A stretch of DNA of 64,000 nucleotides from a virus (IMGVR_UViG_3300020473_002010:1-64000); one strand, 5' to 3'; shown: positions 2,557 through 24,928, counted from the stretch's first letter. Notes: a model not told the origin generated them from the letters alone. Made by a program: numbers and translations.

Positions 2557-4191
2557 ATGAGCCTTCAATATTCTAAACACTTTCCATATAAGCAGATACG
2601 CCCCCAGCAAAAGCAAGCTATTGAGTTTGCTTTGGATAAAAACATAAATGAGGGCAAACGGTTCATCATAATTGAAGCAGGAACCGGCGTTGGTAAAAGC
2701 GCTATCGGGCTGACTGTTGCTAGATATCTTTCTGAAAAGCTTTCAAACGCTACGGGTTTATTCGAACCGGGATCTTATTTTTTAACAACACAAAAGATAT
2801 TACAAGAACAATACGTTAAAGACTTCGGTGGATTTTCTGGTCCAATGAAATCAATTAAGTCTTCTTCAAATTACACTTGCAGGTTCAACAAAAAAACTTC
2901 GTGCGGTGAGAGCTTAAGAACACTAAGGACAGCAGAAAAGGGTAGCGCGTTCTGGAAGGCTTGTACGTTTAATTGTGTGTATAGAAATGCAAAAGAAGGT
3001 TTCTTAAAGTCTCCAGAGGGTGTGACTAACTTTCCTTACTTTCTCGCTGAAACGCAGTATGCTGGAAAGCTAACCCCACGTCAGGTGCTAGTTATTGATG
3101 AGGCCCATAACGTCGATTCCCAATTAAGCAAGTTTATCGAAATCACAATTTCGAATCGTTTTTGCAAAAGCTTTCTTAATTTCGAAGTCCCTAAATCTCT
3201 TACAGCCGCAAAATATGTAAAATGGATTGAAGAAACGTACGTTCCAACAATAGCTGGAAAGCTTAAGCATTTAGAGCAGATGTTAGAAAAGTATGTCGGC
3301 TTAACAGAAAAAATCAAGTCTGGAGAGTTTGCTTCTATTGCTAAAAAGTTTGAAGTTATGGATAAGCATGTTTGCAAGGTCCGAAGGTTTCTAAAGCTGT
3401 ATAATTCTGAAAACTGGGTTATGAATGAAATCGCTGCCGATGGGCGATCTGGTCGAAAGATAGAGTTTAAGCCAATCGATATCGCTCCTTTTGCTAACGA
3501 GCATTTATACAACTACGGTGAAGTCGTTATTTTGATGTCTGCAACTATTCTGGACAAAAAAGCGTTTACTGAAAGCGTTGGGATTCCTGAAGATAAAGCT
3601 GCTTTTATCAGTCTTCCCAGCCCATTTCCTGTAGAAAATCGGCCAGTTGTTTATAGTGGTATCGGAAAGATGAGCTCAAAAACGATAGATGATACACTAC
3701 CAAGAATGGTTCAGGCAGTAAAAGCGATTCTAGAACAACACAAGAATGAGAAGGGTATTATCCACTGTCACTCTTACAAAGTCGCGAATTATATTAAGAA
3801 GAATGTACGTAATACTCGATTGCTTATTCATAATTCTGAAAATAGAGAGAAGGTCTTAGAAAAGCATATGAAGGCCAAGAAAGCCACGGTGCTTATCTCA
3901 CCATCCATGACTGAAGGTGTTGATCTTAAAGGTGATTTAAGCAGGTTCCAGATTATCTGTAAGGTGCCGTATCCATACTTAGGTGATAAGTTAGTACGAA
4001 AAAAGATGAATAAGTGGAAGTGGTGGTATCCGCTTCAGACAGCAAAAACGATCGTGCAAGCAACCGGGCGATCCGTGCGATCTAATGAAGACACTGCTGT
4101 TACGTACATTTTAGATTCAGATTTTGAAATGTTCTATAATAGAAATAGATCAATGTTCCCAAAGGGGTTTAAGGAAAGTTTACAAAAATGA
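2557..4191 (+). CDS. dinG: DinG/XPD-like superfamily 2 DNA helicase with Fe-S cluster
   Basis: This is a 544-residue ATP-dependent helicase, probably 5'-3' on DNA as known for the XPD/DinG family. Walker A is AGTGVGKS at residues 41-48 and the DEAH box is at 181-184. Four cysteines between them (108, 116, 136, 140) match the 4Fe-4S cluster position of XPD-like helicases. The C-terminal helicase domain includes the VLISPSMTEGVDLKG segment and the QATGRSVRS motif VI. A clear AAGGAG site precedes ATG 2557. The gene ends in an ATGA overlap with the nucleotidyltransferase, so the two are translationally coupled. Likely role: phage DNA repair, recombination or replication. The exact substrate is unknown. 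Confidence 0.85.
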   Translation: MSLQYSKHFPYKQIRPQQKQAIEFALDKNINEGKRFIIIEAGTGVGKSAIGLTVARYLSEKLSNATGLFEPGSYFLTTQKILQEQYVKDFGGFSGPMKSIKSSSNYTCRFNKKTSCGESLRTLRTAEKGSAFWKACTFNCVYRNAKEGFLKSPEGVTNFPYFLAETQYAGKLTPRQVLVIDEAHNVDSQLSKFIEITISNRFCKSFLNFEVPKSLTAAKYVKWIEETYVPTIAGKLKHLEQMLEKYVGLTEKIKSGEFASIAKKFEVMDKHVCKVRRFLKLYNSENWVMNEIAADGRSGRKIEFKPIDIAPFANEHLYNYGEVVILMSATILDKKAFTESVGIPEDKAAFISLPSPFPVENRPVVYSGIGKMSSKTIDDTLPRMVQAVKAILEQHKNEKGIIHCHSYKVANYIKKNVRNTRLLIHNSENREKVLEKHMKAKKATVLISPSMTEGVDLKGDLSRFQIICKVPYPYLGDKLVRKKMNKWKWWYPLQTAKTIVQATGRSVRSNEDTAVTYILDSDFEMFYNRNRSMFPKGFKESLQK

Positions 4192-4694: not shown

Positions 4695-5019
4695 AAAACC
4701 GTGGGGATATGAAGTGGTTTGGGCTGAGACAAACGCATACGTTGGTAAGCTTTTGCATATCAATGCCGGGCATAGGCTATCCAAACAATTTCATATGATT
4801 AAAGAAGAGACGGTGTACGTTCTTAAGGGCACACTCTACAATTATGAAGAAGACGGATCAATCACAAAAGTCTTACCCGGAAATTCCTTACACATTAATG
4901 TTGGCCAGGTTCATAGATTTGGAGCAAATGAATCAAGCGTTGAAGTCATTGAAGTCAGCACACCGTATTTAGAAGATGTGGTAAGATTGGAGGATGACTA
5001 TGATAGAGGGAGACAGTAA
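4681..5019 (+). CDS. Cupin, mannose-6-phosphate isomerase type II-like
   Basis: A 112-residue single cupin domain. The N-terminal KPWGYEVVW, the GHRLSKQFHMIKEE...VLKGTL strand pair and the C-terminal TPYLEDVVRLEDDYDRG are characteristic of the C-terminal domain of type II mannose-6-phosphate isomerase/guanylyltransferases and stand-alone homologues. Metal ligands are probably the His residues in GHRLSKQFH and HINVGQVHRF plus Glu. It would convert fructose-6-phosphate to mannose-6-phosphate, the substrate of the nearby phosphomannomutase. Other sugar-cupin reactions are possible because a single cupin is a weak predictor. A GAGGAGG site lies about 10 bases before ATG 4681. Confidence 0.72.
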   Translation: MRKIEKPWGYEVVWAETNAYVGKLLHINAGHRLSKQFHMIKEETVYVLKGTLYNYEEDGSITKVLPGNSLHINVGQVHRFGANESSVEVIEVSTPYLEDVVRLEDDYDRGRQ

Positions 5020-5416
5020 GCAAGGTGCCGGATTCATAATTTTTAAGGCGGCAAATCCAGAGTTGGTACTAGTCCTAATTCGAAGCGATGGGCAATATGA
5101 CATTCCAAAAGGTGTAGTTGATACCGGGGAAAGTGATATTATGGCTGCAAAGAGAGAGACATTTGAGGAGTGCTCAATATTCATAGAGCCCAAAGAAATG
5201 TTGGCTCCTATGCCATCATTAAAAGATGAACAGCTTGCAACTTATGCTGCTATTACGGGCAAAATTCCACAGATTACTCCTAACCCGCACTCTGGAATAT
5301 GGGAGCATGAGGGATACGAATGGGTGACAAAAGACAAGGCAGTTGCTAATTGTTTGCCCTATCTTGTTCGGCATATAGAGGCCGGTTACTTTCTGAAAAG
5401 GATCTGTCTTCTATAA
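5000..5416 (+). CDS. Nudix hydrolase
   Basis: A 138-residue Nudix family pyrophosphohydrolase. The Nudix box runs from Gly38 (GVVDTGE) through RETFEE at 52-57, matching GX5EX7REUXEE. The usual Gly after EE-X is Ser59, a small deviation. The preceding DIPKG segment is also typical. I chose ATG 5000 rather than 4994, because GGAGG at 4989-4993 abuts the first ATG but sits six bases from the second. Substrate cannot be read from the sequence. Position next to sugar-nucleotide genes suggests an NDP-sugar or nucleotide substrate, but dinucleoside polyphosphates or RNA caps are equally possible. Confidence 0.85.
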   Translation: MIEGDSKQGAGFIIFKAANPELVLVLIRSDGQYDIPKGVVDTGESDIMAAKRETFEECSIFIEPKEMLAPMPSLKDEQLATYAAITGKIPQITPNPHSGIWEHEGYEWVTKDKAVANCLPYLVRHIEAGYFLKRICLL

Positions 5417-5442: not shown

Positions 5443-6609
5443 ATGTCAATTTTCCGACGCCACAAGACAATCGCAGATCGATCAGCAGGAGATCGAGCTC
5501 GACATCGTAAAAAGATCGAGAAGGCGATTAAAGAGGGTATCCATAATATCGTTGCCGAAGAGTCAATCATCGGTAAGGATGGAAAGAAAAAATTTAAGAT
5601 ACCAGTTCGTGGCATCAAAGAATATAGATTCGTATATGGTGACAATGGATCTAGAAGGGTTGGGTCTGCTCAAGGTAAGGATGTTCAGCGTGGGCAAAAG
5701 ATCGGTGAAAAGGAAAAACAAGGAAGTGGAAAACCCGATAAACCCGGCCAGGAAAAGGGCGAAGAGTATTATGAAGTTGAGCTAACTCTTGAGCAGCTAG
5801 CAGACTACTTGTTCAATGATCTTGAGTTACCCAACTTCGAAAAGAAAAGAAATGCGCAGGTTATTGCAAAGAAAATAAAGCGCAAAGGATACAGGTCTCA
5901 AGGTATTCGGCCAAGGCTTGATAAAAAGAAAACCGTAATACAAAAGCTAAAAAGAAAGAATAAAGCAAAGAGAGCAGGAAAGCTGACTGGTGATGAAGAT
6001 GAATTTTCATTTCACGAAAAGGATCTTCGTTATAAGCACTACAAGGTAACAGAAAAGAAGTCATCAAATGCCGCGATACTCTTTTTGATGGATATTTCCG
6101 GATCGATGACCAAAGAAAAGAAATTTCTGGCTAGAAGCTTCTTCTTTCTTTTGTATCATTTTATTAGGTCTAAATACGATAAAGTAGAGATTGTTTTTAT
6201 AGCTCATGATGTTGAAGCTTACGAAGTTACAGAGGAACAATTCTTTGGTCGTGGTTCGGGTGGCGGGACCATGGTTTCTTCTGCGCTAAAGATGGCAGAA
6301 GACATCATAGATTCTAGATACCATAGGTCTAGTTGGAACACTTACGTTTTCCAATGTTCTGATGGTGACAATTGGCCGACTGACAATGGTTTGTGTCTTA
6401 AGGTAATCAACACTATGCTAGACAAAATTCAGTTTTTTGGGTATTGTGAAATTGAACCAAACGTTGAAAGACTAAAGTGGTTAAGTGATACCACCTTAAG
6501 CAAGCTTTACGAGCAACTAGAGGGCGATAAATTTAAGCTTGCCGGTATATATCAGAAAAACGATATCTGGACTGCTTTTAGAAAGTTTTTCAAGGGAGAG
6601 ATGGCATGA
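5443..6609 (+). CDS. yeaH: YeaH/YhbH family protein (DUF444, UPF0229)
   Basis: A 388-residue member of the DUF444 family, which in bacteria works with the PrkA/YeaG kinase in stress and stationary-phase physiology. The N-terminus (FRRHKTIADRSAGDRARHR) is the family's characteristic start. A charged, Lys/Gly-rich linker covers about residues 70-110. The C-terminal half is a von Willebrand A-like domain with MIDAS residues DISGS at 217-221, Thr276 in GGGTMVSS and Asp307 in CSDGDNW. A perfect TATAAT at 5412-5417, overlapping the previous stop codon, could be a promoter -10, though I see no good -35. The ATG overlaps nothing and is preceded by AGAGG. The gene ends in an overlap with spoVR, so the three-gene module is coupled. 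Confidence 0.92.
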   Translation: MSIFRRHKTIADRSAGDRARHRKKIEKAIKEGIHNIVAEESIIGKDGKKKFKIPVRGIKEYRFVYGDNGSRRVGSAQGKDVQRGQKIGEKEKQGSGKPDKPGQEKGEEYYEVELTLEQLADYLFNDLELPNFEKKRNAQVIAKKIKRKGYRSQGIRPRLDKKKTVIQKLKRKNKAKRAGKLTGDEDEFSFHEKDLRYKHYKVTEKKSSNAAILFLMDISGSMTKEKKFLARSFFFLLYHFIRSKYDKVEIVFIAHDVEAYEVTEEQFFGRGSGGGTMVSSALKMAEDIIDSRYHRSSWNTYVFQCSDGDNWPTDNGLCLKVINTMLDKIQFFGYCEIEPNVERLKWLSDTTLSKLYEQLEGDKFKLAGIYQKNDIWTAFRKFFKGEMA

Positions 6610-7913
6610 CATCATTTTTAGAAGAATTACAAAAGTGGGATGCTAAACTGATAAAAATGGCAGAAGACCACGGATTAGACTGGTTTCCCATTCTCTATGA
6701 AACTTGTGACTATTACGAGATGATTGGCACAATGGCTTACCACGGCATGCCGTCACATTACGGACACTGGAGCTTTGGTAAAAGCTTTGAGCGAACCCAC
6801 ACGATGTATAATGCCGGTCTAGAAGGGCTTCCATACGAGCTTATCATTAACAGCGATCCATCTCTAGCATACCTGATGGAAGAAAACCCGCTATATCTTC
6901 AAATACTGATTATGGCACACTGCATTGGCCACTCAGACTTTTTTAAGAACAATATTACATTTAGTCACACTCGACCGGATCAAGTTATTCTTAGAATGAG
7001 AAATGCAAAAAGGTATATTGACCAATTAGTGGAGGATCCAAGTGTTGGTGTGGAAAGAGTCGAAGAGATTTTAGACGCAGCCCATGCTTTATCTCTTCAC
7101 GTGCCCAGACAATATAAAAAATATGTCAGTCAAAAAGAACAACGAAAAGAATTGATTCATGAGATAAAGTCAGGGTACTATAAAAACTCAAAAAAGACAC
7201 CAGACCCGGACGCTTATCCAATATCTAGAGAAGAAAACATAATAGCGTTTATAGCTGAAATGTCACCGAACCTGGAAGAGTGGGAACGAGAGTTACTCTG
7301 GATCGTGCTTGATGATGCTCAATATTTCATGCCACAAATCCGAACAAAGATAATGAATGAAGGGTGGGCTTCATATTGGCACTACAGGCTAATGCATGAG
7401 CTTGATTTAGACTCTGAATTACACCTTCCATTCTTAAAGATGCATAACGAAGTTGTTCGGCCGCATTTAGGGTCTATTAACCCTTATCACCTTGGATTCT
7501 TTCTATTTCAAAAAATCGAAGAGAGATATGGGCTAGAAGAATGCTTCATAGCTAGGGAATCGCTTAATGATGAAGCGTTTCTGAGACAGTACCTTACAGA
7601 GAAAGATTGCGAAGAATTGAATTTATTTAGTTTCTCGCTTCATAAGAATGATTATCTAATAGACGACGTTGCCGACGATGATGGGTGGAAAAAAGTAAAA
7701 GAAGACCTTATCAATCAGGTTGGAGGGAATAATATACCCATAATAACTGTTGCAGAAATCATCGATGGTGGAATATTGGCTCTAGAGCATGAACATGAGG
7801 GAAGGGATTTAGACCTAGATTATGGGGATGCTGTAGTAAAACATATCCAACGGTTGTGGGGCGATATAGTTAAATTGGACACGATAATAGAGGATGAACC
7901 CTTCGAAATCTAA
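6606..7913 (+). CDS. spoVR: SpoVR/YcgB family protein
   Basis: A 435-residue SpoVR family protein. Family features are the N-terminal YETCDYYEMIGTMAYHGMP, then SHYGHWSFGKSFER, the HCIGHSDFFKNN segment, and MNEGWASYWHYRLMHEL at about residues 246-262. It is shorter than E. coli YcgB (about 510 residues). The biochemical activity of SpoVR is not established. The Bacillus gene is named for a role in spore cortex formation, and proteobacterial homologues lie next to yeaG and yeaH. Here it sits between the DUF444 and PrkA genes, overlapping the former by four bases. This conserved partnership in a phage strongly supports a joint function. Confidence 0.93.
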   Translation: MTSFLEELQKWDAKLIKMAEDHGLDWFPILYETCDYYEMIGTMAYHGMPSHYGHWSFGKSFERTHTMYNAGLEGLPYELIINSDPSLAYLMEENPLYLQILIMAHCIGHSDFFKNNITFSHTRPDQVILRMRNAKRYIDQLVEDPSVGVERVEEILDAAHALSLHVPRQYKKYVSQKEQRKELIHEIKSGYYKNSKKTPDPDAYPISREENIIAFIAEMSPNLEEWERELLWIVLDDAQYFMPQIRTKIMNEGWASYWHYRLMHELDLDSELHLPFLKMHNEVVRPHLGSINPYHLGFFLFQKIEERYGLEECFIARESLNDEAFLRQYLTEKDCEELNLFSFSLHKNDYLIDDVADDDGWKKVKEDLINQVGGNNIPIITVAEIIDGGILALEHEHEGRDLDLDYGDAVVKHIQRLWGDIVKLDTIIEDEPFEI

Positions 7914-7928
7914 TTCGGGAGAAACTTA

Positions 7929-9857
7929 ATGTCAAAGAACAAGTATTTAGACATCATCAAGACCCAACGGGCTAAAAGCAAGAAAGAAAAATTCAAGGGA
8001 ACTCTCCTCGACTATCTTGCTCTTGTTGAAGAAGACAAATCAATCACTGATCATGCGCACAAGAGGCTGTATGATGCGATTGTTGATCGAGGCATTAGCA
8101 CTCTCGACGACACAGACCCTAGAAAGCACAAGCTATTTGATGGCGATGATGTCAAGACGTTTGACTATTTTCAGGATCAATTTTTTGGTATGGAAAGGGT
8201 CATCTCAAAGATCATGAGGTATATGAGGTCGGCTGCTATGAAGGGCGAAGAGAATCGGCAGGTTCTTTTGCTAATGGGTCCTGTGGGTGCAGGTAAATCT
8301 GCTTTAACTGAACATATAAAAAGTTCATTAGAGGGCTTACCTTATTATCACTTAGAGGGGGACCCTCAAAGAGGGGAACCGCTACAGTTGATCCCAAGGT
8401 CTCTAAGAGGTCAAATGAAAGAAATGCTTGGGGTTGCAATCGAAGGAGATATTTCCCCAGTAGCTCGGCACCTTTTATTCGAAGAGTATGACGGAGAATA
8501 CGAAAAGTTTTCAGTCACCGAAACTACTTTCTCTCAACGAGCTAGAAGAGGCGTTGCGTCTGTTCCCCCAATGGATGCGAACAGCCAAGATGTTTCTGTA
8601 CTGATTGGTTCGGAAGATATCTCAAAACTTGATAAATACTCTGAAGATGACCCTCGGTCGCTTTCACTAAATGGTGCATTCAACGTTGGTAATAGGGGTA
8701 TAGTCGAACTTGTGGAGGTCTTTAAGAATGAGATTGAGTTTCTCCATACGATTATTACCGCAACCCAGGAGAAGAGAGTACCGTCCCCCGGAAAGCATGA
8801 TATGATTCATTTCGACGGAGTTATTCTTGCCCACTGCAACGAAGCTGAATGGAATAGATTCCAGAGTGAACATACAAATGAAGCTATCTTAGACCGAATC
8901 GTAAAAGTAAACGTTCCTTATGTCTTAGAGTTGGAGTCTGAAATAAAGATTTACGAGAAGATTCTTAGCTTATCTAACTTTGATATTCATATTGCTCCCC
9001 ACACCCTTAGGGTCGCGTCGATGTTTTCTATCTTAAGTCGTCTAAAGCCAAGCCAGAAATGCGACTTATTGACGAAGCTAAAAATCTATAATGGCGAAGA
9101 AGTCGTTGAAAAGGGTCGTGTGAAAAAAATCGACATTAATGACCTTAGAGATGAATCGTCTAACGAGGGCATGAATGGTATATCCACAAGGTTTATCATG
9201 AAAGCGATTGATAATGCTCTTAGCGATTCTGATAAAGACTTCGTTACTCCTGTTTCAATTCTTGATTCTCTAATGAAGCAATGCAAAGAACAATTGATCG
9301 ACAAAGAATTCGCAACACACTGCCTTGAGTTGATTAGAAATACTGTAAGAAATGAATACCTACGCTTACTAGAGAATGAAATTGCGAAAGCATTCATCAC
9401 CGCGTACGAAGAGCAAGCCCAGTCTATTTTTGAAAATTACCTTGATAACGCAGAAGCATTTACAACGAAGTGTAAGCTAAAAGACAGGGTGACCAAAGAA
9501 GAGATGAAGCCTGATGAAGAATTTATGAGGTCGATTGAAGGCTCTATTGGTGTAAGTCAATCCGGCCGAGAGGGGTTTCGAGCTGACGTTACAGCGTATA
9601 TGTTCGCAAAAATGCGCAGAGGTGAGATTGTGGACTACACCTCGTATGAGCCCCTTAAGGAAGCGATCGAAACTTACCTGATTAGCTCTGTAAAAGACTT
9701 AGCTAGAATCGTTACCAAGTCTAAGACACGGGACGATGAGCAGAAGGTTAAATACTCAAGCATGGTTCAGACGCTTATCGACGAATACGGTTATACTCCC
9801 GAATCAGCAGAAGAAGTGCTGGTATACGCGAGCAATAATCTTTGGAGAGACAGCTAG
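7929..9857 (+). CDS. prkA: PrkA/YeaG family serine protein kinase
   Basis: A 642-residue protein, the same length as cellular PrkA/YeaG. The N-terminal AAA-like part has the Walker A GPVGAGKS at residues 117-124 and the family segments DQFFGMERVISKIMRYMRSAA and PLQLIPRSLRG. The C-terminal kinase-like part is intact to the usual YSSMVQTLIDEYGYTPESAEEVLVYASNNL ending, here split across residues 600-640. In bacteria PrkA/YeaG is a Ser/Thr kinase (or AAA protease in some reports) tied to nutrient stress. A GGGAGAAAC site precedes ATG 7929, 15 bases after the spoVR stop. The full module yeaH-spoVR-prkA is therefore complete, with the gene order permuted relative to typical bacterial operons. Confidence 0.93.
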   Translation: MSKNKYLDIIKTQRAKSKKEKFKGTLLDYLALVEEDKSITDHAHKRLYDAIVDRGISTLDDTDPRKHKLFDGDDVKTFDYFQDQFFGMERVISKIMRYMRSAAMKGEENRQVLLLMGPVGAGKSALTEHIKSSLEGLPYYHLEGDPQRGEPLQLIPRSLRGQMKEMLGVAIEGDISPVARHLLFEEYDGEYEKFSVTETTFSQRARRGVASVPPMDANSQDVSVLIGSEDISKLDKYSEDDPRSLSLNGAFNVGNRGIVELVEVFKNEIEFLHTIITATQEKRVPSPGKHDMIHFDGVILAHCNEAEWNRFQSEHTNEAILDRIVKVNVPYVLELESEIKIYEKILSLSNFDIHIAPHTLRVASMFSILSRLKPSQKCDLLTKLKIYNGEEVVEKGRVKKIDINDLRDESSNEGMNGISTRFIMKAIDNALSDSDKDFVTPVSILDSLMKQCKEQLIDKEFATHCLELIRNTVRNEYLRLLENEIAKAFITAYEEQAQSIFENYLDNAEAFTTKCKLKDRVTKEEMKPDEEFMRSIEGSIGVSQSGREGFRADVTAYMFAKMRRGEIVDYTSYEPLKEAIETYLISSVKDLARIVTKSKTRDDEQKVKYSSMVQTLIDEYGYTPESAEEVLVYASNNLWRDS

Positions 9858-9858
9858 T

Positions 9859-10323
9859 GTGTTTCGAGAAAGACAACCTATAAAAGGTTACTTTACTAAA
9901 AGTGTAGTTGTAAAAGAGTCGACCGTTGAAGGATTGGGCGTTTTTGCAACTGAAGATATTCCTCTGCATGCATGCTTTGAGGCTGTCCCCTACATCGCAT
10001 TTGCAACAACTTTATTAAAAGACTTCTTAGACATGTACGAAAGAGAGCATCTGCTGAAGTCGTATGTGTTTGCAGCCCCTGATGGGATGTATGCTTTAGC
10101 TCTTGGGTACGGAGGCATATACAACCATAGCGCTCAACCAAATGCATTCTGGAAGTTTAGGGGTGGTCCAGAGAAAGCCATAATGTATTACGCGAAAAGA
10201 GATATCAAAAAAGGGGAAGAGATTTTCATAAAATACGGATGGAATTCCCAAAGGCTCGCCTTTGCTGATGAAAATGAGGTAGATCGATTAGTCAAGCTCG
10301 GGTTATCACGAGAAAATATTTGA
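9859..10323 (+). CDS. SET-domain protein methyltransferase
   Basis: A 154-residue stand-alone SET domain, predicted to be a SAM-dependent protein lysine methyltransferase. The hallmark motifs are GLGVFATEDI (25-34), YNHSAQPN (88-95; canonical NHSxxPN) and GEEIFIKYG (119-127) with the catalytic-type Tyr126. I chose GTG 9859, two bases after the prkA stop, because GGAGAG lies nine bases upstream. The longer frame reaching into prkA is overlap only. It lacks pre- and post-SET Cys clusters, as in bacterial and viral SET proteins. Its position as the last gene of the yeaH-spoVR-prkA string suggests co-expression. The target protein is unknown. Confidence 0.88.
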   Translation: MFRERQPIKGYFTKSVVVKESTVEGLGVFATEDIPLHACFEAVPYIAFATTLLKDFLDMYEREHLLKSYVFAAPDGMYALALGYGGIYNHSAQPNAFWKFRGGPEKAIMYYAKRDIKKGEEIFIKYGWNSQRLAFADENEVDRLVKLGLSRENI

Positions 10324-10666: not shown

Positions 10667-11980
10667 ATGTCCGCAAAGAACGATGTAATTTGTAGGGATG
10701 AGATTGAGAAGTGTAAGAACTCTCTAAGAAAAGATATCTCATTGGCAGTGCAAGAAGTCGATAGCCTTTCATCATCATTATTGCTCGATGATTGTCTTCA
10801 CACCATTGGGTGGAGCGATTCTTTTCGAGCATTATTAATTGGCTTAAAGAAATCTGAACCAGCATACAGAAATCTCATCTTAAACAGTGCTAATCATATC
10901 AATTCTAATTGTTCGATGGGCATTCCATTATACCTTGTTCTTGTAGAGCATCTATTAAAAAGTGAATACGATGGTGAGCGCTTATTAGAAGACATCCAGC
11001 AACCTAAACGGACAAAATCCGCAACGATTATTTCTGAATGGCAGAAAACCGTACATGATGAATACACTATAAAAAATAAAGACCTGTTTTTGAGCGCAGT
11101 AAATCAGGCGGGATCTTTAGGTTCTGTTGTTGTTGAAAAAACCAGCGCAATAAATCGCGTTGAAGTTGATTGTGGTTCAAAATTCTCTTGTACTGCTCAT
11201 TCATTTTTTGATGATGAAAGCTTGGACATAATAGAGTTCGACAAGTGTTTAATCGCTGTAGTAGACGGCGCGATTATAGAAGTAAGCGAAATCCACCACC
11301 TCTTAACATACGCATACGAAAGAAGCATGCCAGCAGTTATCGTGGCAAGCAACTATTCTGACGATGTTGCAAATACCTTGAGAGTTAATTGGGAAAAGGG
11401 ATTGGTCAAGGTATTGCCTCTTATCCTCAATCGAGATTTAGACAATATCAACCAGGTAAAAGATATATGTGAAGTTGCATGTACAGTACCGATCTCTAAA
11501 GACACGGGATTGCTATTAAGCGCTATGGACTTTGATGAACAACCCCTAAACTCAGTAGTATACATTCGCAGAAAATCTGAGATTTCGATTAAAACAACCA
11601 AGCGTAATTTTGATGCGATAAGAGTGCTCCAAAAAGAAATACAGGAAAGCCTTGAAAAAGAAAAAGTAGATGACATAAAAAAGATTTTAAGGAAAAGGCT
11701 ATCACGATTATCAACTAGAAAAGCGATAGTAAAAATAAACTGCAGTCAAACAGAGCTTGGTATTTTGCAAGACAGGGCTGGAAGTCTGTTTCAGCTACTG
11801 TCGTGCGCAGGAAGGGAAGGAGTTGTTTCTTTAGACCCAATATATGAGAGGATAGGTTATTCTCCAAGTCGATATATGCCAAGAATTCTGCCAAGGCGTG
11901 TCACGGAAATTTCTATTAGGAGAGCGATATCTGATGTTAGAGCTATAAATAAAATTATGGCTATTATTAAATTGGATTAG
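10667..11980 (+). CDS. Divergent, probably ATPase-dead GroEL/Cpn60-like protein
   Basis: A 437-residue protein that I align by eye with GroEL over most of its length. Residues about 191-250 (CLIAVVDGAIIEVSEIHHLL, then AVIVASNY...TLRVNWEKGLVKVLPL) match the GroEL apical segment [20 protein letters not shown]...LLIIAEDV...VVNTMRGIVKVAAV. Residues about 318-387 match the GroEL region from the RQQIEEA helix through VAKLAGGVAVIKVG to AVEEGVV. The last 20 residues match GroEL's VAGLMITTECMV helix. The equatorial GDGTTTAT motif is replaced by NCSMGIPLYL (81-90), the N-terminal glycine-rich nucleotide loop is absent, and about 80 equatorial residues are missing. It is therefore unlikely to hydrolyse ATP. 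It could be a modified chaperonin subunit, an adaptor or a decoy. The relation is inferred by eye, so an unrelated fold remains possible. Confidence 0.55.
   Translation: MSAKNDVICRDEIEKCKNSLRKDISLAVQEVDSLSSSLLLDDCLHTIGWSDSFRALLIGLKKSEPAYRNLILNSANHINSNCSMGIPLYLVLVEHLLKSEYDGERLLEDIQQPKRTKSATIISEWQKTVHDEYTIKNKDLFLSAVNQAGSLGSVVVEKTSAINRVEVDCGSKFSCTAHSFFDDESLDIIEFDKCLIAVVDGAIIEVSEIHHLLTYAYERSMPAVIVASNYSDDVANTLRVNWEKGLVKVLPLILNRDLDNINQVKDICEVACTVPISKDTGLLLSAMDFDEQPLNSVVYIRRKSEISIKTTKRNFDAIRVLQKEIQESLEKEKVDDIKKILRKRLSRLSTRKAIVKINCSQTELGILQDRAGSLFQLLSCAGREGVVSLDPIYERIGYSPSRYMPRILPRRVTEISIRRAISDVRAINKIMAIIKLD
11944..11951 (+). promoter_or_regulatory. Candidate T4-type late promoter TATAAATA
   Basis: An exact match to the T4 late promoter -10 element, 30 bases before the RNase H-like gene and inside the end of the chaperonin-like gene. 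A gp55-like late sigma is encoded at 47.6 kb. One 8-base match in AT-rich coding sequence could easily be chance. Confidence 0.2.
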
Positions 11981-16211: not shown

Positions 16212-19200
16212 ATGGCAAAAGATTTTAGAGCAGACCAAATACGATTTCATACAATCCTTGCGTCAGGCACTATGTGGCCAAGACAAACAAGTGATACCCC
16301 GCCTAACCCCGGGTATTTGGACGGTAATGGTCACCCGCATCTGGGCATGGTCATCATGTCTGCTAGTGATGCCTATGACTACGAAGGTACGTTTAATCAA
16401 TCTGGCAGAGATATGTTCAACCAATTTGGGCATGAGCCATGGCTCGTATTTTCTGGCGTTGCTAACACCACCACAAACGGTCGAGATGGGTGGGATAGAC
16501 CAGACGTAGCCGGTGGATATCCGAAAGGTAGTGCTGTTCTATTCATGGGCGATGTCATTATCAGTGGTACTTTATTCGGAAAGCGGCAGGTCATTACTGT
16601 GGACAAAGATGTTCCCGGTGATTTTCACGTTATTGGTGATGCGTTTGTTTCTGGAGGCATCTTTGCAGGAGAAACCAAGTATCCCGATTCAACAACCCCC
16701 TTAGAAGATGCGTTTGTTGTGCAGCAGGGTGACGCTAATAATCCCCCAAGAATATCATTTAGAAAGATAAAGTGGTCAACCCGGCTCGCTTCATCGTGGA
16801 CAGACACTTACAAAGATTGCTTCCTTGTATTCTCTGGTGCCAAAGATGGTAAGGATGGTAACGCTGGTAGCATAGCACTGTTCGAAGGTGACGTGCATAT
16901 CTCTGGTAACATAACAGGGGATGGCTCTGGATTCTACGCTCCAGACGAAAATCTCATACTTAATAATTCTGCAAGCTGGTATAATCAAACTAATACATGG
17001 TGGGGAGAAGTTGGTACGGATCGAGGACCTGCTTTCGGTCATGCAACAACCGGTACGTATGCAAGAATTAGCAATGACGGCGGTAGCTCATGGATTGACG
17101 CAGGCACAGGCCCATCTACTAGACCTTATTATATCGAGCAAGACAGGTGGAGCATTTCAGGGTCAGCTGACTCAAGCATAAGCTTCGGTGGCGTAAATCG
17201 TGCGGTGCCATCGCACTGGTACTCTGATTTCATTAACTCAAGCTCAGTAGATACAGGAGCCAAAAAAGGTGGATTTAGATTCTTGGTTGGTGGGGATGGA
17301 CTGCATGCTGCTGCTCCCGGAGGTTTTGCAGCAGCGAATAGAAGCGTATTTACGATATCTGGTTCTGGTGATATTGCTCTTGACCCGTATAAGTCGCTTG
17401 TTTTTGATTCACAGGCAAACTCAGCTCTAACAATCACTCATATTAAGGGCCCAACCCTCGCAGATCCTCAAACAAACCATGCTCTAAGGTTTACAGCTGC
17501 AACAACATACCCGGTCCACTATAATTTTGTAAGGGGTGAAGTTACAGGGTCAGGAGGGTTCCATCTCCCTAACCTGCAAAATGCTCACTCTGCCAACACT
17601 CGAGACGGACAGCAGGGTCAGCTTAGCGGGATTACATTCCAGGGTGAGGCAGACTCAACCGCGAACCCGGCGGTCGAAGACACACGTCCCGATGTGGCGA
17701 TTTTCTACCAAAAAGCAGCGAACTCACACCCGCAACACCCACAAATTAAACCCAAAACGTTCATTATAACTGCCTCTCATACAGATTCCAGTGTATGGAT
17801 TGGAGCAGGTAACGACCTTATGCTAAAAGCGGACGACGACACATTCGTCCAGGCTCATGATGATGTATGGGTCATAGCTGGATCTGATCCAAACGAGAGT
17901 AATGGCGAAGTCAAAATGATGTCTCGTGCAGGATCGTTTATATTCGGCAATAGAGGGGGATTGGCTGACACGGTATCTACCGAAAATATCTTTCAGATCA
18001 CTCATAACTCTGCCGACCCAACGGATACTGCTAAAGAAGGCGGATACACTGTGCAGCTCAACTCAAGTGGCTCGACAGTCGGCGGTGATCCAAGCACGGC
18101 CAGCTACTTGATGTTTAGTGGGTCTGGAGACAAGGGCGCACACACTATTAAGACCGTCGACCAAAGTGGGGTAGGCTCCGAGCTTGGTCACTTGACGATA
18201 TTCCCTGATGGTCGATTGATCATGTCAGGAACAAAGCACGTATCAATCGATTCCGCTGGGGCTGCTGGTTCGGATTCGAAAATCCGCATCGCGACGAAAA
18301 ACAACGCCCAGTCTGTTGAAATAGGTGGAGAGACCGGTGCGGGTGACGTTAAGAAAATGTACTTCAGGGCACAGGAGCTTTATGTAGAAACGGAAGATAA
18401 GAGTTATTCTGGTGGTGGCGAGCAGCACGGTATTAAAATGCTCTCATCCACAACGCTACAAATGACTGGGTCAACGAACGCTGGTATCACGGCAACATCA
18501 GGTCAGGCGCATATTAACGCAAAGAGTGCCAATGGTATTATTCACCTCCGCGCAGACTCGACCGCAGAAGGTGTCCAAATTGCGCGTCAATTGACGGATG
18601 GTACTACTGCTGCCAATATTCCTGTATTTATTGGAGGTTCAACTTCTACTGTCACGATTGGTAATGACTTAAGCGTTGGAACGGTAGCTCACTCCGGTAG
18701 CGTAGACGTTTGGGGTGACTTGACTGTTCACGGTAACTTTATTAAAGGTCACGTCATAACAGCCTCCATGGAAGATCCGCTCTTAATGCTGAACTCTGGC
18801 TCTAAAGTCGGCGGATCTGGTGGTGGTATTGCGATCGCTTCTGGTTCAAGCGCTGTCTTCACAAACGCACAAGGTAACTGGAACTACTCGATGGTATTTG
18901 GTAGAGATACCGTAAATCATGGTGGCGATCGCGACACATTCCTTGCTGGAAGAATGGATACCGAGGATGGGCTAAAAATCAGTCTTGACGGAGCGGTACC
19001 TATTGACATGAGGGCCGCTGGGTACAGAACAGTTGCTGGAATGACAATGACCGCATCACAGGTTCCAGGTGAGTCTATATACACAGTAAGAGCAGGTAAT
19101 ACTGGAAGCGCTGGACGGCTCGTGCTGCATGCAGGTACTACAGACGGCGGAGCAAATCTTGGGCCCTTCTCGCTGAGCGGCTCTTACTTCACGTTCAGCC

Positions 19201-21641
19201 CAGGCTCTAAGATATACTTGGATAATACTGCAAATGACGTGTATTTTAGGTCTCAGCAGGGCGGTACAAACCAGAGACTAGACCTGAATCTTAAAAATGC
19301 ACTCAGGTTAACTGGACAACCGAATATTCAATTTTACGCCAGTGAATTCCAGATTCGGCACGGTCACAGCTCAGCAGATCCTACAGATGTGTTGATGCTA
19401 AAGGCTGACGCGCATCCTCTTGTCTTTTCTGGATCAGATTATTCTTTCGATATGGCAAGTGGCGAGTACATGTGGTGGAACGAGCACGCTACAGACTATA
19501 CTAGATGGAACATCGCCTCCAACCAGGTCCAACTTGACATGGGCAGCGCGATGACAGGATTTAAGATCCTCGGCGCGACCAAGAAAATCTTTTTTAACTC
19601 AGATAGCAAGTATATAAAAGGCGATGGCCAAGTATCTAGTGGGGACCTTACCTATTCTTCGGCGCAGACGGCAACTGTTAAAACAACTGGCTATGCACAA
19701 TCTGTTGAGATATTCGCCGCAGATGCTAACGAGTTACTTGCCACTAAGAATAATAGGGGTACCGGCGCTGTTCTTATCTTTACTTCATCCGCCACTGGGG
19801 CTCCGGATAAGGGGTACGCATCACTGGGTTATAGCACCGAAGAGCTTGACAGCGGGATGTTCACGGATAAGAATGAAGATGTCACGTTAATATTCTCTGG
19901 TTCAGCAGGTAACTTACCACTTAAACACCACCGCGGAACGTCATTATTCACCGGTGATGTCGTCATATCAGGAAGCATGGCTGTCGGTGAATACATTTAC
20001 CACGATGGTAATGAAAGCGCAGTAAGCGGCGCGCCCCGGACAGCGATCAGGCTACAAGATCGAGTCATAAGCTTGATTGCATCAGGTACAAATATTCTTG
20101 AGGTTGAGGGTATTGGAGATAAGTTCGCCACCTTCAACGGCAATAGCGGGCAAGTTAGTACTCAAATCAAAGGCTACTCTGCCGGAGACGACAAACCGAT
20201 AATGTTGGCCTTGGCACATGATTCGAGCAACCGGGCAACATTCTTCAATCCACTCACAACACTCGACCCCGATGTCGATCCAGCAAACGGCCATGATGTC
20301 CTTCTGTTCTTCAGTGGAGCGATGGGAAGTAAGTATCAGGCAGGTGATACAGATGCGGCTGTCAGAGCAACAGCACTCTTCGGTGGCGACGTTTATGTTT
20401 CGGGTACTTTAGGCGCAGGAACAGTGGACCTTGCAAACCTTACCTTAACGGATACAAATCCGTATCTTCGATTCTATGATGCTAATACATACATCAAGAA
20501 AGACGGCACAAACCTTAATTTCTATGATGCTGCACTGGGGACTGTCAAATCATTGACACAGCTGGCCAGCTTGTCAGTTAGTGATGACCTGTTTAGCGTA
20601 ACAAGGACTGCTCTTAACGTACCGAATTACGGGATGTCCACTGGATCGTTCTCTTTTGATAGCGGATTTAACGGTTATTCAGACAACAACCCGCGACCCA
20701 CAAACTTGGTAAGCGATAATAATACTGGCGCTGGAAATACTGACGTATACTTCTTCGTTAGTGGCGCTGTTGGTATGAAGGCTCGAGCGCCGGCAGATAT
20801 TGCAAACCAGCTAAACAGAAGGTCTGTTGCTCTATTTGGTGGTGATGTTCACATTTCAGGAACGCTTACGAGCAATAATACCTCATTCGGTGCATCTTCA
20901 CTTGACAAGTGCTATGACACCAACGCCGCCGGGGAAGAAGAAGCGGGCGGTGGTCGCAGAATCATAGCAGACGCGGAAAAAGTAGAAATTCAAAGAACCA
21001 CTACGAACGCTATTGCTAGTCACCACTTATTCGGTGTAACAGGGTCTGCAAACTTTGGACAAATAAAAATAGCACCCATAGTGGACGCTGATGGATTCTA
21101 CACATACGGTGGGGTATTCGTTACAGGAAGTGCTGGAAGACTTGGGTTCGGAGTAGGTGGCTCAACAGCAACAGACGTAGCATTCTCTGTTAACTCTAAT
21201 AATAATATCGAGATCGGCGGTACCGGAGGAAACAGTAGAAAGCTCTACTGGGATCCAAACGAAAACAGCACGTTTATTCGATACACGAACACAAATAGCT
21301 CTAATCCTGGTCCAAAGATATTACATTTTGCGAACAGGACAGCTGATGGCCGGATTAGTTTTTCAATGGGCTCAGGCGGTACCATTACTGGTACAAATCA
21401 AGGGACCGGTTTTGAGGGCCACATTGCAGTTTCTGGCAGCATACTCCCGGGATACGATAATGAGTACAATCTTGGTAGTCCCTCCACTAGATGGGCCAAC
21501 CTTTATACCGGTGACCTCCACCTTCGAAATGAACGAGGCGACTGGACGATCTACGAGGAAAGAGACATGCTAGTTGTCGTAAATAATATAACAGGAAAAA
21601 GATACAAGATGGGGCTTACACCCTTGGAGGATGACGAGTAA
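16212..21641 (+). CDS. Giant repetitive tail fibre protein
   Basis: An 1809-residue, Gly/Ser/Thr/Asn-rich, beta-structured protein with almost no Cys. A module of the form FSG-(15-40 residues)-LFxGDVxISG recurs at least five times, at about 16446-16580, 16821-16910, 19888-19980, 20294-20410 and 20742-20866. Between the two clusters lies a long stretch with many 'SGS' turns. The C-terminus GYDNEYNLGSPSTRWANLYT followed by GDLHLRNERGDW and NNITGKRYKM is a recurrent ending of marine phage fibre proteins. It is predicted to be a long trimeric fibre that binds host surface glycans. AAGAGGAAAAA precedes ATG 16212. It overlaps the second fibre gene as TAATG. Confidence 0.85.
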   Translation: MAKDFRADQIRFHTILASGTMWPRQTSDTPPNPGYLDGNGHPHLGMVIMSASDAYDYEGTFNQSGRDMFNQFGHEPWLVFSGVANTTTNGRDGWDRPDVAGGYPKGSAVLFMGDVIISGTLFGKRQVITVDKDVPGDFHVIGDAFVSGGIFAGETKYPDSTTPLEDAFVVQQGDANNPPRISFRKIKWSTRLASSWTDTYKDCFLVFSGAKDGKDGNAGSIALFEGDVHISGNITGDGSGFYAPDENLILNNSASWYNQTNTWWGEVGTDRGPAFGHATTGTYARISNDGGSSWIDAGTGPSTRPYYIEQDRWSISGSADSSISFGGVNRAVPSHWYSDFINSSSVDTGAKKGGFRFLVGGDGLHAAAPGGFAAANRSVFTISGSGDIALDPYKSLVFDSQANSALTITHIKGPTLADPQTNHALRFTAATTYPVHYNFVRGEVTGSGGFHLPNLQNAHSANTRDGQQGQLSGITFQGEADSTANPAVEDTRPDVAIFYQKAANSHPQHPQIKPKTFIITASHTDSSVWIGAGNDLMLKADDDTFVQAHDDVWVIAGSDPNESNGEVKMMSRAGSFIFGNRGGLADTVSTENIFQITHNSADPTDTAKEGGYTVQLNSSGSTVGGDPSTASYLMFSGSGDKGAHTIKTVDQSGVGSELGHLTIFPDGRLIMSGTKHVSIDSAGAAGSDSKIRIATKNNAQSVEIGGETGAGDVKKMYFRAQELYVETEDKSYSGGGEQHGIKMLSSTTLQMTGSTNAGITATSGQAHINAKSANGIIHLRADSTAEGVQIARQLTDGTTAANIPVFIGGSTSTVTIGNDLSVGTVAHSGSVDVWGDLTVHGNFIKGHVITASMEDPLLMLNSGSKVGGSGGGIAIASGSSAVFTNAQGNWNYSMVFGRDTVNHGGDRDTFLAGRMDTEDGLKISLDGAVPIDMRAAGYRTVAGMTMTASQVPGESIYTVRAGNTGSAGRLVLHAGTTDGGANLGPFSLSGSYFTFSPGSKIYLDNTANDVYFRSQQGGTNQRLDLNLKNALRLTGQPNIQFYASEFQIRHGHSSADPTDVLMLKADAHPLVFSGSDYSFDMASGEYMWWNEHATDYTRWNIASNQVQLDMGSAMTGFKILGATKKIFFNSDSKYIKGDGQVSSGDLTYSSAQTATVKTTGYAQSVEIFAADANELLATKNNRGTGAVLIFTSSATGAPDKGYASLGYSTEELDSGMFTDKNEDVTLIFSGSAGNLPLKHHRGTSLFTGDVVISGSMAVGEYIYHDGNESAVSGAPRTAIRLQDRVISLIASGTNILEVEGIGDKFATFNGNSGQVSTQIKGYSAGDDKPIMLALAHDSSNRATFFNPLTTLDPDVDPANGHDVLLFFSGAMGSKYQAGDTDAAVRATALFGGDVYVSGTLGAGTVDLANLTLTDTNPYLRFYDANTYIKKDGTNLNFYDAALGTVKSLTQLASLSVSDDLFSVTRTALNVPNYGMSTGSFSFDSGFNGYSDNNPRPTNLVSDNNTGAGNTDVYFFVSGAVGMKARAPADIANQLNRRSVALFGGDVHISGTLTSNNTSFGASSLDKCYDTNAAGEEEAGGGRRIIADAEKVEIQRTTTNAIASHHLFGVTGSANFGQIKIAPIVDADGFYTYGGVFVTGSAGRLGFGVGGSTATDVAFSVNSNNNIEIGGTGGNSRKLYWDPNENSTFIRYTNTNSSNPGPKILHFANRTADGRISFSMGSGGTITGTNQGTGFEGHIAVSGSILPGYDNEYNLGSPSTRWANLYTGDLHLRNERGDWTIYEERDMLVVVNNITGKRYKMGLTPLEDDE

Positions 21642-24600
21642 TGCCGATATTTACAACGCAAGTTTCAGGCTCAACATATACCCATTTATCTGGTACAATT
21701 AGTTTATCAGGCTCTCATTATAACGATGTAGCTGGTGCGCTAAACCCACCTTTGTTTCAAGTTACGGGTAGTGTTGGAATTGAAAGAAACCTTAGGGTGT
21801 CAGGCTCTCTTATGGTCTCTTCCAGCCTATTGATATCAGGTACAGCAAGATTTGACAGTCGAGCGGGTGGTGTACAAGCATATTTCACAGATAAAAGAGG
21901 TCACGCTGAAACACAGATTGCATCCTCTAACGGAGGTTCGCTCCGGATTCAGCATGCTGATGTCTTTGCGTATGGTGTATTCGCCCCAACAGTAAAGCTT
22001 TATAAATCTAGAGGGACATTAGACAGTCCTACACCCCTTAACGACGGTGATAGAATCGGAAACATTGAATTTTGGGCTTACGACAATTCGTGGGAGCGAA
22101 GTGCAATGATTACTGTTAATGCAACCGCTAATCACGGCGATGATTCCACCGATGTTCCGTCAAATATGCAATTTTTCGTAGCTGAAGATGGACAAACAGC
22201 ATACAATTCTACTCCTGCGCTTACATTAATTAATTCTGGTTCCGGGACCGGTGGACTAGTAGCACATACAGGTGGAAATCTCCGCGTCGGTGGAAATGAA
22301 ATCGAGAATAGCGACGGAGAAACGACAATCATTATGACCGCCGACCAAAAAGTCGGCATTGGGCCGGATCCTGGAGGTTCATGGCCCTCATACATGCTAG
22401 ATGTTAATGGAGATATCCGAATCCGCGGAAATGATATAAGAAATAGCGACGGTGAGGTGACTATTTCCATGGACGCTGATCAAAATGTAACCATTGGAAA
22501 CGATTTAACGGTCACTGGAAATGTTATTAGAGCATCAGATGGTGGATCAACTATCACAATGGACGATTCCGACAACGTAACTATTGGAAATGATTTAACG
22601 GTTGGTGGAAATGTTATTAGAGCATCAGATGGTGGTTCAACTATTACGATGGACACCAGCGATAATGTAACCCTAGCCGGTAATCTAGACCTTGCAAAAA
22701 GCGGAGCAACTTTATTAACAATAGGCGATGACTCTGATGGCGATAATCGTAAGATCACGTTTGGTCATGCAACTTGTAAGACCGTAATGGGAATTTATGA
22801 CACCGACGACAAATTTCAAATTCATACTGGCGCAGATCTTGCATCTGGTGCCGATTTTGAGTTAGATAATTCTGGGAATGTTACCATTGGTAACGGTAGT
22901 TTATATGTCGATGGTGAAGTCTGGGGTAAAGGTACAACGCAGCTTAAACTGAATTCCAACGCTGACGTTATAGTAAAGGTAGATGCAGACAACAATCAAG
23001 GTGGTAAAAAGTTCAAGGTTAATAATCATTCTGATACCGAGAAGTTCTCTGTTTCGATGGCAGGTGTTGCTTCGGCTGCCGGTGCGATTTATGCTGGTGG
23101 CAATGCGCGGATAAGTGGTTCTATTTATCTTGATGATGGCGGCATGTTTATGGGTATGTCTTCTAACGACCTGCAAGTTACATCAAAGGGTAATATTGAA
23201 TTCTTTGTTGATAATGATGTAACAACTCCGGGTAACAGCTCATTCCTCATATACTCTGGCTCCACAACAAACACCATACCACTATTCGCTGTTACTGAAG
23301 CTGACGGTGTTGATGTCGGCACGACCCTGATTGGTGGAGACCTAAAAGTCGGTCAAAATAGAATCCTGAGCTCTGATAATACGGAAGCTTTGTACTTATC
23401 TGGTTCAGGAAACGTTGTTGTTAAGGGGGAGCTAGAAGTTGTAGGAGGAATTGTTACAGCACCATCGGTGCTAGCCAACGCTGCGGTATCCCCAAGCGAG
23501 GACAAATGGATTAGGATTGCAACAGCTAATTCTGATATAGACCAGAACAATAAACAGCTATCCTCAACGTTCCTCGTCACAATGGTCGGGGTTGAATACA
23601 CTACGACGTTTAATGCAGATTCTACATTTTTAGTTCACGTTGAGTGGGTTGCCAGGAGCACAGCGCCATATTACGATAGCGATGGTACTTCTATAACGGT
23701 TGATACACTGTCTGGGACGGCAGACCTCGAGGACTTCGACCCTTCCACCGATGTTGCAATTACTTTCTCGAACTCAGAGACCCCAACACAAGTTGACCTC
23801 TGGATGAAGTATAATGAGAGTCATCGTTCTTGTTATACTTCTATTTTGGGAGGGACTACACAGGTATCTTCGAATTACATTATTGAAGGCTTTACGTTGT
23901 TAACTGGACAGTCCAATGAGAATTCGATAACAAGCTTAGGTCAAGAAGTGTATGGAACCTGGATGGACAAATCCTACAATAACGTACACGTCAGCAAAAT
24001 ATACTCTGAGTTTCCCTCAGGCGGACAGCAGGTCTTAAGCTTTAGCGGGTCGAACATAAACAGCAATGCAACAAATCCTGTTAGTATCGTGGGAACTGGC
24101 ACCGGCGTAACTCCTTACCTTATGATTACCAGTAGGGCTACAGGTGTCGACAGCGGACCTGAATTCAATATGAGGAAATATGCCAGTGACGGAACGCTTG
24201 TAGAGGGCGAAAATCTTGGTGAGATTAGATTCATGGCAGCCACCGGATCAGCACCTCATGGATTTGATGATGAAACCTATGAGAATGGTGCTGTCATTAT
24301 TGCTGAGGTGGGAACAGGTACATGGGAAACAGGAAGCAGTCCAGGTAGGCTAAGGTTCTTCACCAATGAGGATGGGTCAAATACGCTCCGCGAGAGACTT
24401 GCGATTGAGTCCGATGGAGAAATTACTTTTCCAAGAGGTGGCTTTCCTGGCTTGGTTATTGGCTATACAGCTGTCGATTCGTCTGCCCTTGGAAACATGA
24501 ACGTGACAACAACCATGGACTACATTCAGGAAGGATCCGGCGATAGAGCTGACGTTACTTTTACTGCGCCACCAAGCGGTAATGTAGAAATTGAATGGAG

Positions 24601-24928
24601 CGGATACATTAGGTGTACTTCTGACACAGCAGCATGGTTAAAAATGGGGCTGACAACTGACACAAGCACATTTACGATAATCAATGGAACAAGGAAATTC
24701 GTGAAGCAATCCTCGACCTTTGATGATGAACATGCTACATATTTTACTACAAAGTGGATAGTGAGCAGTCTAACACCAGGCACTTCCTACACTTATTGTG
24801 TCGGGGCGCAGGCCGAAGCAGCTGATTCATTCGACATATATTGGTACGACTACAACGGCGGGTCGAATGATTATTATCCACCCATGACAGTAAAAGCGAC
24901 TGTTTTACCTGCTACAATATCTACTTAA
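21641..24928 (+). CDS. Second large repetitive tail fibre/tailspike protein
   Basis: A 1095-residue beta-rich protein. The first 120 residues repeat 'SGT/SGS' turns (FTTQVSGSTYTHLSGTISLS). Residues about 210-350 contain tandem 30-residue units of the type GNxIRxSDGxxTITMDxSDNVTIGNDLTV, suited to a beta-helix or triple-stranded fibre. The region after about residue 610 (SEDKWIRIATAN...) looks like globular jelly-roll domains, possibly the receptor-binding tip. No S74 chaperone motif was recognised. It starts by overlapping the previous stop and is the last gene of the fibre block before the glycan island. Confidence 0.82.
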   Translation: MPIFTTQVSGSTYTHLSGTISLSGSHYNDVAGALNPPLFQVTGSVGIERNLRVSGSLMVSSSLLISGTARFDSRAGGVQAYFTDKRGHAETQIASSNGGSLRIQHADVFAYGVFAPTVKLYKSRGTLDSPTPLNDGDRIGNIEFWAYDNSWERSAMITVNATANHGDDSTDVPSNMQFFVAEDGQTAYNSTPALTLINSGSGTGGLVAHTGGNLRVGGNEIENSDGETTIIMTADQKVGIGPDPGGSWPSYMLDVNGDIRIRGNDIRNSDGEVTISMDADQNVTIGNDLTVTGNVIRASDGGSTITMDDSDNVTIGNDLTVGGNVIRASDGGSTITMDTSDNVTLAGNLDLAKSGATLLTIGDDSDGDNRKITFGHATCKTVMGIYDTDDKFQIHTGADLASGADFELDNSGNVTIGNGSLYVDGEVWGKGTTQLKLNSNADVIVKVDADNNQGGKKFKVNNHSDTEKFSVSMAGVASAAGAIYAGGNARISGSIYLDDGGMFMGMSSNDLQVTSKGNIEFFVDNDVTTPGNSSFLIYSGSTTNTIPLFAVTEADGVDVGTTLIGGDLKVGQNRILSSDNTEALYLSGSGNVVVKGELEVVGGIVTAPSVLANAAVSPSEDKWIRIATANSDIDQNNKQLSSTFLVTMVGVEYTTTFNADSTFLVHVEWVARSTAPYYDSDGTSITVDTLSGTADLEDFDPSTDVAITFSNSETPTQVDLWMKYNESHRSCYTSILGGTTQVSSNYIIEGFTLLTGQSNENSITSLGQEVYGTWMDKSYNNVHVSKIYSEFPSGGQQVLSFSGSNINSNATNPVSIVGTGTGVTPYLMITSRATGVDSGPEFNMRKYASDGTLVEGENLGEIRFMAATGSAPHGFDDETYENGAVIIAEVGTGTWETGSSPGRLRFFTNEDGSNTLRERLAIESDGEITFPRGGFPGLVIGYTAVDSSALGNMNVTTTMDYIQEGSGDRADVTFTAPPSGNVEIEWSGYIRCTSDTAAWLKMGLTTDTSTFTIINGTRKFVKQSSTFDDEHATYFTTKWIVSSLTPGTSYTYCVGAQAEAADSFDIYWYDYNGGSNDYYPPMTVKATVLPATIST
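22427..22696 (+). repeat. Tandem 90-bp coding repeats, three units
   Basis: Units 22427-22516, 22517-22606 and 22607-22696 encode three 30-residue copies of G-N-x-I-R-x-S-D-G-x-x-T-I-x-M-D. Units two and three are nearly identical in DNA over about 60 bases. A related, weaker unit occurs near 22290-22366. In-frame unit number could change by recombination and so change fibre length. Confidence 0.85.

Follow-up and report, generated by a model that had tools for sequence, protein, structure and literature searches.

A gene trio encoding a DUF444 (YeaH-type) protein, a SpoVR protein and PrkA was found to be carried by a lineage of marine phages as a complete, selected module, lying on one strand and in the non-cellular order DUF444-SpoVR-PrkA in 60/60 loci where all three genes were recovered. 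The reading favoured here, at a probability of about 0.5, is that its products would work in infected cells as an AAA+/VWA/SpoVR ATPase complex, with host physiology as the most likely target. The window, i.e. the whole stretch of 64,000 nucleotides that was analysed (IMGVR_UViG_3300020473_002010:1-64000, part of a 69.7 kb IMG/VR record), contains four consecutive plus-strand ORFs between positions 5443 and 10323, all of them intact (Table 1). An earlier reading of the same DNA (hereafter the initial annotation) had placed the trio back to back with overlapping genes and a SET-domain gene directly after it; the tight arrangement was confirmed, but overlap was confined to DUF444 and SpoVR (4 nt), SpoVR and PrkA being separated by 15 nt and PrkA and SET by 1 nt. 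Its identification of the four products held in Pfam searches, the scores lying far above cut-off for the trio (DUF444: PF04285, 3.4e-111, 372.7 bits; SpoVR: PF04293, 3.7e-118, 395.2 bits; PrkA: PF08298, 4.9e-136, 453.9 bits, and PF06798, 3e-78, 263.5 bits, with cut-offs of 25) and being clear for SET (PF00856, 3.2e-13, 50.4 bits). The SpoVR_C domain (PF24755, 9.1e-8, 32.5 bits) was also above cut-off. The DUF444 protein matched TIGR02877 (YhbH) with 4.3e-119 and 397.9 bits, below the cut-off of 467.95 for that model, and is therefore a member of the family and not the Bacillus YhbH equivalog. Near the start of the window, on the opposite strand, a gene for a trypsin-like serine peptidase was observed (880-1662, minus; PF13365, 1e-10).

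Table 1. Coordinates of the trio and its neighbouring genes in the window.
Feature	Position	Strand	Remarks
DinG/XPD-type helicase	2557..4191	+	phrog_2488, 3.1e-120; upstream end of co-directional run
NUDIX hydrolase	4994..5416	+	PF00293, 7.1e-9; same gene run, upstream in 29/51 loci
DUF444/YhbH/YeaH protein	5443..6609	+	388 aa; VWA domain, MIDAS intact
SpoVR protein	6606..7913	+	435 aa
PrkA	7929..9857	+	642 aa; AAA+ ATPase and C-terminal kinase-like domain
SET-domain protein, stand-alone	9859..10323	+	154 aa; GTG start
Divergent chaperonin (GroEL)-like protein	10667..11980	+	437 aa; phrog_5725, 5.3e-10

The phage origin of the window, as previously proposed, was corroborated by synteny of its record with a 306 kb phage contig (L101; NHDW01000006.1, 305,838 bases), which was matched, mostly collinearly, by 38 of the 58 ORFs tested, and by the presence of capsid and terminase genes in the lineage. 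The contig is filed under a species-representative bacterial MAG (Methylococcaceae TMED69), a label that is probably due to mis-binning, and no terminal repeats were found on it. The T4 capsid protein Gp23 was present in 8/8 related records of 204-298 kb, whose capsid protein falls within the T4 superfamily, and terminase was found in 5/5 related records that were checked, as well as in the 306 kb contig. No Gp23 match was obtained in the window's own record, a fragment, which is, though, syntenic with that contig, and the window itself carries baseplate-type genes (a gp25-like gene and a baseplate wedge). Judged by this gene content, the lineage of the window is that of T4-type marine phages with genomes of ~300 kb. 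Host contamination as the source of the window was ruled out by the same synteny together with the Gp23 and terminase genes of the lineage, and a plasmid origin was rejected, no match being found. Neither Rfam elements nor tRNAs were detected in the 64 kb window, and the T4 late promoter TATAAATA, sought near the operon, gave a single match in 64 kb, which is below chance expectation. Elsewhere in the window, ~20 co-directional ORFs at 25042-47351, several of which match glycosyltransferase families, adjoin the baseplate genes, and two very long ORFs of 1809 and 1095 aa at 16212-24928 have no PHROG match.

A scan with the PrkA of the window recovered 71 loci at 68-99% identity. The 60 complete loci (59 from IMG/VR and the 306 kb contig, some of them near-duplicates) have gene ends that usually overlap or nearly abut. 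Since this set had been gathered via PrkA, a second sampling was begun from the capsid protein, yielding 15 viral records, of which both above 200 kb carry PrkA; the other 13, of 62-176 kb, have no PrkA and may be incomplete or stem from relatives that lack the module. For the window and a close relative (L005), dN/dS values of 0.013 for DUF444, 0.014 for SpoVR and 0.020 for PrkA were calculated, with dS partly saturated; on these estimates purifying selection on all three genes is strong. Of the window proteins with a match in the 306 kb contig, PrkA was the best conserved (72.7%). Separately, the dS of PrkA between the window (7929-9857) and L005 (10001-11926) was 0.25, as against 1.2 to saturation for the genes next to it, a difference that points to a recent recombination event spanning PrkA.

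The statement that cellular operons usually place the kinase gene first was borne out, PrkA being first in 63/69 cellular loci with all three genes and third throughout the 60 phage loci. Six Bacillota loci, including two from Sulfobacillus (L137, L140, L141, L142, L147 and L148), show the phage-like order, indicating that the change of order arose in cells too. In the PrkA, SpoVR and DUF444 trees the marine phage proteins form one clade each (SH-aLRT 100), and the nearest cells in all three trees are Clostridia, Tistrella- and Flammeovirga-type bacteria. One joint capture of the trio in the marine lineage, followed by reordering, would be the simplest account, and the donor was probably a bacterium whose PrkA was of Clostridium type, or a close relative of such a bacterium. 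The prkA-yhbH-spoVR loci of Clostridium and Bacillus encode the same three families (PrkA 54-61% identical to the phage protein, DUF444 and SpoVR ~40-45%) but in the order PrkA-YhbH-SpoVR rather than YhbH-SpoVR-PrkA. The E. coli genes yeaGH and ycgB (SpoVR) have families, AAA+ residues and the kinase lysine in common with the window trio, whereas YeaG, at ~33% identity, belongs to a distant PrkA subfamily, the type that served as donor for a second viral set of independent origin.

This second set was recovered in a scan with a YeaG-type alignment, which gave 80 further viral loci, 71 of them with the full trio, on contigs of up to 363 kb. Wherever the flanks were complete (46/46 loci) the order was PrkA-DUF444-SpoVR, as in bacteria, and among 11 large records tested SpoVR was present in 11/11, Gp23 in 8/11 and terminase in 7/11. 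The viral PrkA proteins of this type are intermixed with proteobacterial ones in the tree, where at least five changes of the viral label are required by the starred branches. A few short YeaG-type contigs may be host sequence, one example (L307) being identical to the copy in Enterobacter phage LAU1; the LAU1 record (L003; MN688132.1, 1-3308) opens with an enterobacterial yeaG-yeaH, which, given the identity of its PrkA to that of the short contig, looks like flanking host DNA. A third version is carried by the isolated Thermus phages phiYS40, phiLo, MN1 and Lalka27b, in which DUF444, SpoVR and PrkA are ordered as in the window (with an extra gene between SpoVR and PrkA in phiYS40), but whose PrkA shares only ~31% identity with that of the window, has Asp in place of the kinase lysine and occupies a separate branch, a placement that carries long-branch warnings. 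Uncultured phages of 595-642 kb have the trio in the cellular order or dispersed. A single ancestral viral trio common to the marine, Thermus and ~600 kb phages was considered and found to be unsupported, as their proteins lie on separate branches of the PrkA, SpoVR and DUF444 trees. Instead, the separate YeaG-type set, the Thermus version and the label changes indicate that giant phages captured the trio several times.

The initial annotation had allowed that the trio might prove common and already characterised in phages. It is common in giant phage contigs, but no paper describing it as a phage module was found among the open-licence literature on SpoVR, PrkA, DUF444, YeaG, YeaH, phage and AMG. 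Single members were already annotated in phiYS40, and SpoVR (ORF28) and PrkA (ORF30) were annotated in the isolated Ralstonia jumbo phage RsoM2USA, where SpoVR was closest to a Vibrio protein and the two were not treated as belonging to a module (PMC8504454); the sequence of this phage was not among the tblastn matches. From an oxygen-minimum zone of the ocean, spoVR by itself was reported as one of the viral auxiliary genes for 'sporulation' (PMC8940887). Its membership of a repeatedly acquired three-gene stress ATPase module argues against sporulation as the explanation for why phages carry it.

The motifs previously described as intact proved to be so, and to be fixed across relatives: the DUF444 MIDAS (DxSxS, T, D; D217/S219/S221/T276/D307) is invariant in 38/38 aligned viral and cellular proteins, and in PrkA the Walker A residue K123, together with E260, E263, N304, R323 and R371, shows no variation across 70/70 marine viral copies. 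From their positions and what is known of the family, we take K123 to be the Walker A lysine, E260 and E263 to be Walker B-region glutamates and N304 and the arginines to be sensor residues. The best solved match of PrkA was PDB 9xip, 'Serine protein kinase' (4.7e-86). The AlphaFold model of the DUF444 protein matches VWA/MIDAS domains, the top matches including the MIDAS domain of the AAA+ protein Rea1. In SpoVR, H54, H105xxxH109, NE252GxA and H259 are invariant in 35/35 proteins, and the H105xxxH109, NE252GxA and H259 set could bind a metal; the AlphaFold model is confident (pLDDT 91) and has no PDB counterpart at E<=0.001. The lysine of the PrkA kinase-like domain behaves differently. K425, the counterpart of K426 in E. 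coli YeaG, is kept in 70/70 marine viral copies and the equivalent lysine in 80/80 YeaG-type viral copies (150 non-Thermus phage copies altogether), but it is Asp in 4/4 Thermus phages tested and Asp or Asn in 26/75 sampled cellular-type PrkA proteins, a degree of variation scarcely seen at the other AAA+ residues examined. What stays constant in the trio is thus the AAA+ engine and the MIDAS, whereas the kinase lysine is lost in some copies.

It is this pattern that favours an AAA+/VWA/SpoVR complex over virion assembly, a kinase switch or counter-defence. Following capture and reordering, the trio, kept complete on one strand, would have become a standard gene set of the marine lineage, and its three products would form one ATP-driven complex. 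PrkA would be the AAA+ engine, the MIDAS-bearing VWA domain of DUF444 may serve, by analogy of fold and motifs, as a metal-dependent adaptor, and SpoVR, with its invariant His/Glu cluster and no solved relative, may be the effector or the client. Other AAA+/VWA pairs include the chelatases and Rea1/midasin. Made during a long infection, such a complex would put or hold the host cell in a state of the starvation or stress type, which is the process that the cellular module controls. E. coli YeaG and YeaH are functionally linked in adaptation to nitrogen starvation (PMC4664914), and B. anthracis PrkA is required for sporulation and for growth under osmotic stress (PMC13001217). The recurrence of the trio in unrelated giant phages suggests repeated capture to control infected cells. 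Counting against host control are the frequent neighbours of the marine trio, none of which is a known host-regulation gene: a DinG-type helicase upstream in 31/51 loci, the NUDIX hydrolase, PhoH downstream of PrkA in 34/43 loci and the chaperonin-like gene.

The last of these neighbours lends itself to another reading, in which the trio acts on phage proteins as an ATP-driven chaperone for the assembly or maturation of capsid, tail or nucleoid parts of very large virions, working with the downstream chaperonin-like protein. The gene is found on the downstream side of PrkA in 34/43 loci, and its product resembles GroEL (NF000592, 1.1e-11, below cut-off; PDB chaperonin 7k3z, 1.8e-8); this divergent GroEL-like chaperonin may cooperate with the trio in remodelling proteins. 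An AAA+ core with a VWA adaptor is itself a remodelling architecture, the trio occurs in phages with large genomes, and in Lalka27b it is located between the minor head protein and TerL, as it is near TerL in phiYS40. In the marine lineage, however, the trio lies among replication-type genes and far from the capsid gene (67 kb versus 177 kb in G007), and the YeaG-type phages retain both the cellular gene order and the kinase lysine, which suggests that a cellular activity has been kept. A role in assembly is considered rather unlikely.

The initial annotation had named the trio a stress kinase module; the AAA+ engine is invariant, while the kinase label is uncertain. Without the SET protein, its interpretation would be that of a true Ser/Thr kinase system phosphorylating host targets and thereby driving the host into a low-metabolism state. 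Consistent with this, the K426A variant of E. coli YeaG fails to complement, as do K116A and R232A (PMC4664914), and the lysine concerned is the one kept in all the marine and YeaG-type viral copies. On the other hand, purified B. anthracis PrkA, which has no kinase P-loop, was found to be negligibly active in vitro both as a kinase and as a protease, and the same study disputed a 2022 report that the B. subtilis protein is a weak protease (PMC13001217). The replacement of the lysine in all four Thermus phages and in about a third of the cellular-type copies, next to near-constant AAA+ residues, also speaks against a kinase system, and we regard this interpretation as unlikely; with the key lysine kept in jumbo phages, a regulatory role for the kinase-like domain is plausible. 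Finally, use of the trio against a host defence or a block to host takeover, for instance through the remodelling of some host complex or as a substitute for a host copy that the defence targets, would fit repeated capture by large phages from different donors, a pattern that such genes may also produce, but appears very improbable, as the genes identified next to the trio include none known from defence or counter-defence, and its low dN/dS and high conservation are unlike those of most arms-race genes.

The four-part system including the SET protein that had been proposed was not borne out. The SET gene lies downstream of PrkA in 3/43 loci, which are the closest relatives of the window (L005, L006 and L032), and upstream of the trio, 6-10 kb away, in 7/51 loci, with no SET gene found in 8/14 related records examined. 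When the window protein was compared with 50,697 phage records, the only matches were to two records of one 735 kb uncultured phage. It is an accessory gene and occasional neighbour, and no constant member of the module. Its most likely start is the GTG at 9859, 1 base past the PrkA stop and preceded by GGAGAG, the ATG at 9736 lying inside PrkA. With its domain and its NHS..PN and GEEIFIKYG motifs (the latter being the catalytic Tyr motif), the product is a putative SET-domain lysine methyltransferase. Its best matches among solved structures were SET7 (PDB 5h6z, 5.2e-17) and PBCV-1 vSET (PDB 1n3j, 2.7e-9); vSET and other small stand-alone SET methyltransferases share with it the core of the SET fold and the NHS..PN and Tyr motifs, but a histone substrate is not expected in a bacterium.

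What is new is the viral use of a known bacterial module, in which the trio extends more broadly than the initial annotation had stated and the SET link is narrower. The bacterial module is widespread and its biochemistry debated (kinase, protease or remodeller), and the phage copies provide a natural comparison set for residues that are indispensable, while a three-gene module in giant phages offers a common mechanism to test. We tentatively entertain the wider proposal that the trio is a general giant-phage machine, captured independently by unrelated large phages for one essential job that an AAA+/VWA/SpoVR complex does in their infection, be it long-lived control of the host or the assembly of very large particles. 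If this is true, what the bacterial module does at the molecular level might be learned from its phage copies.
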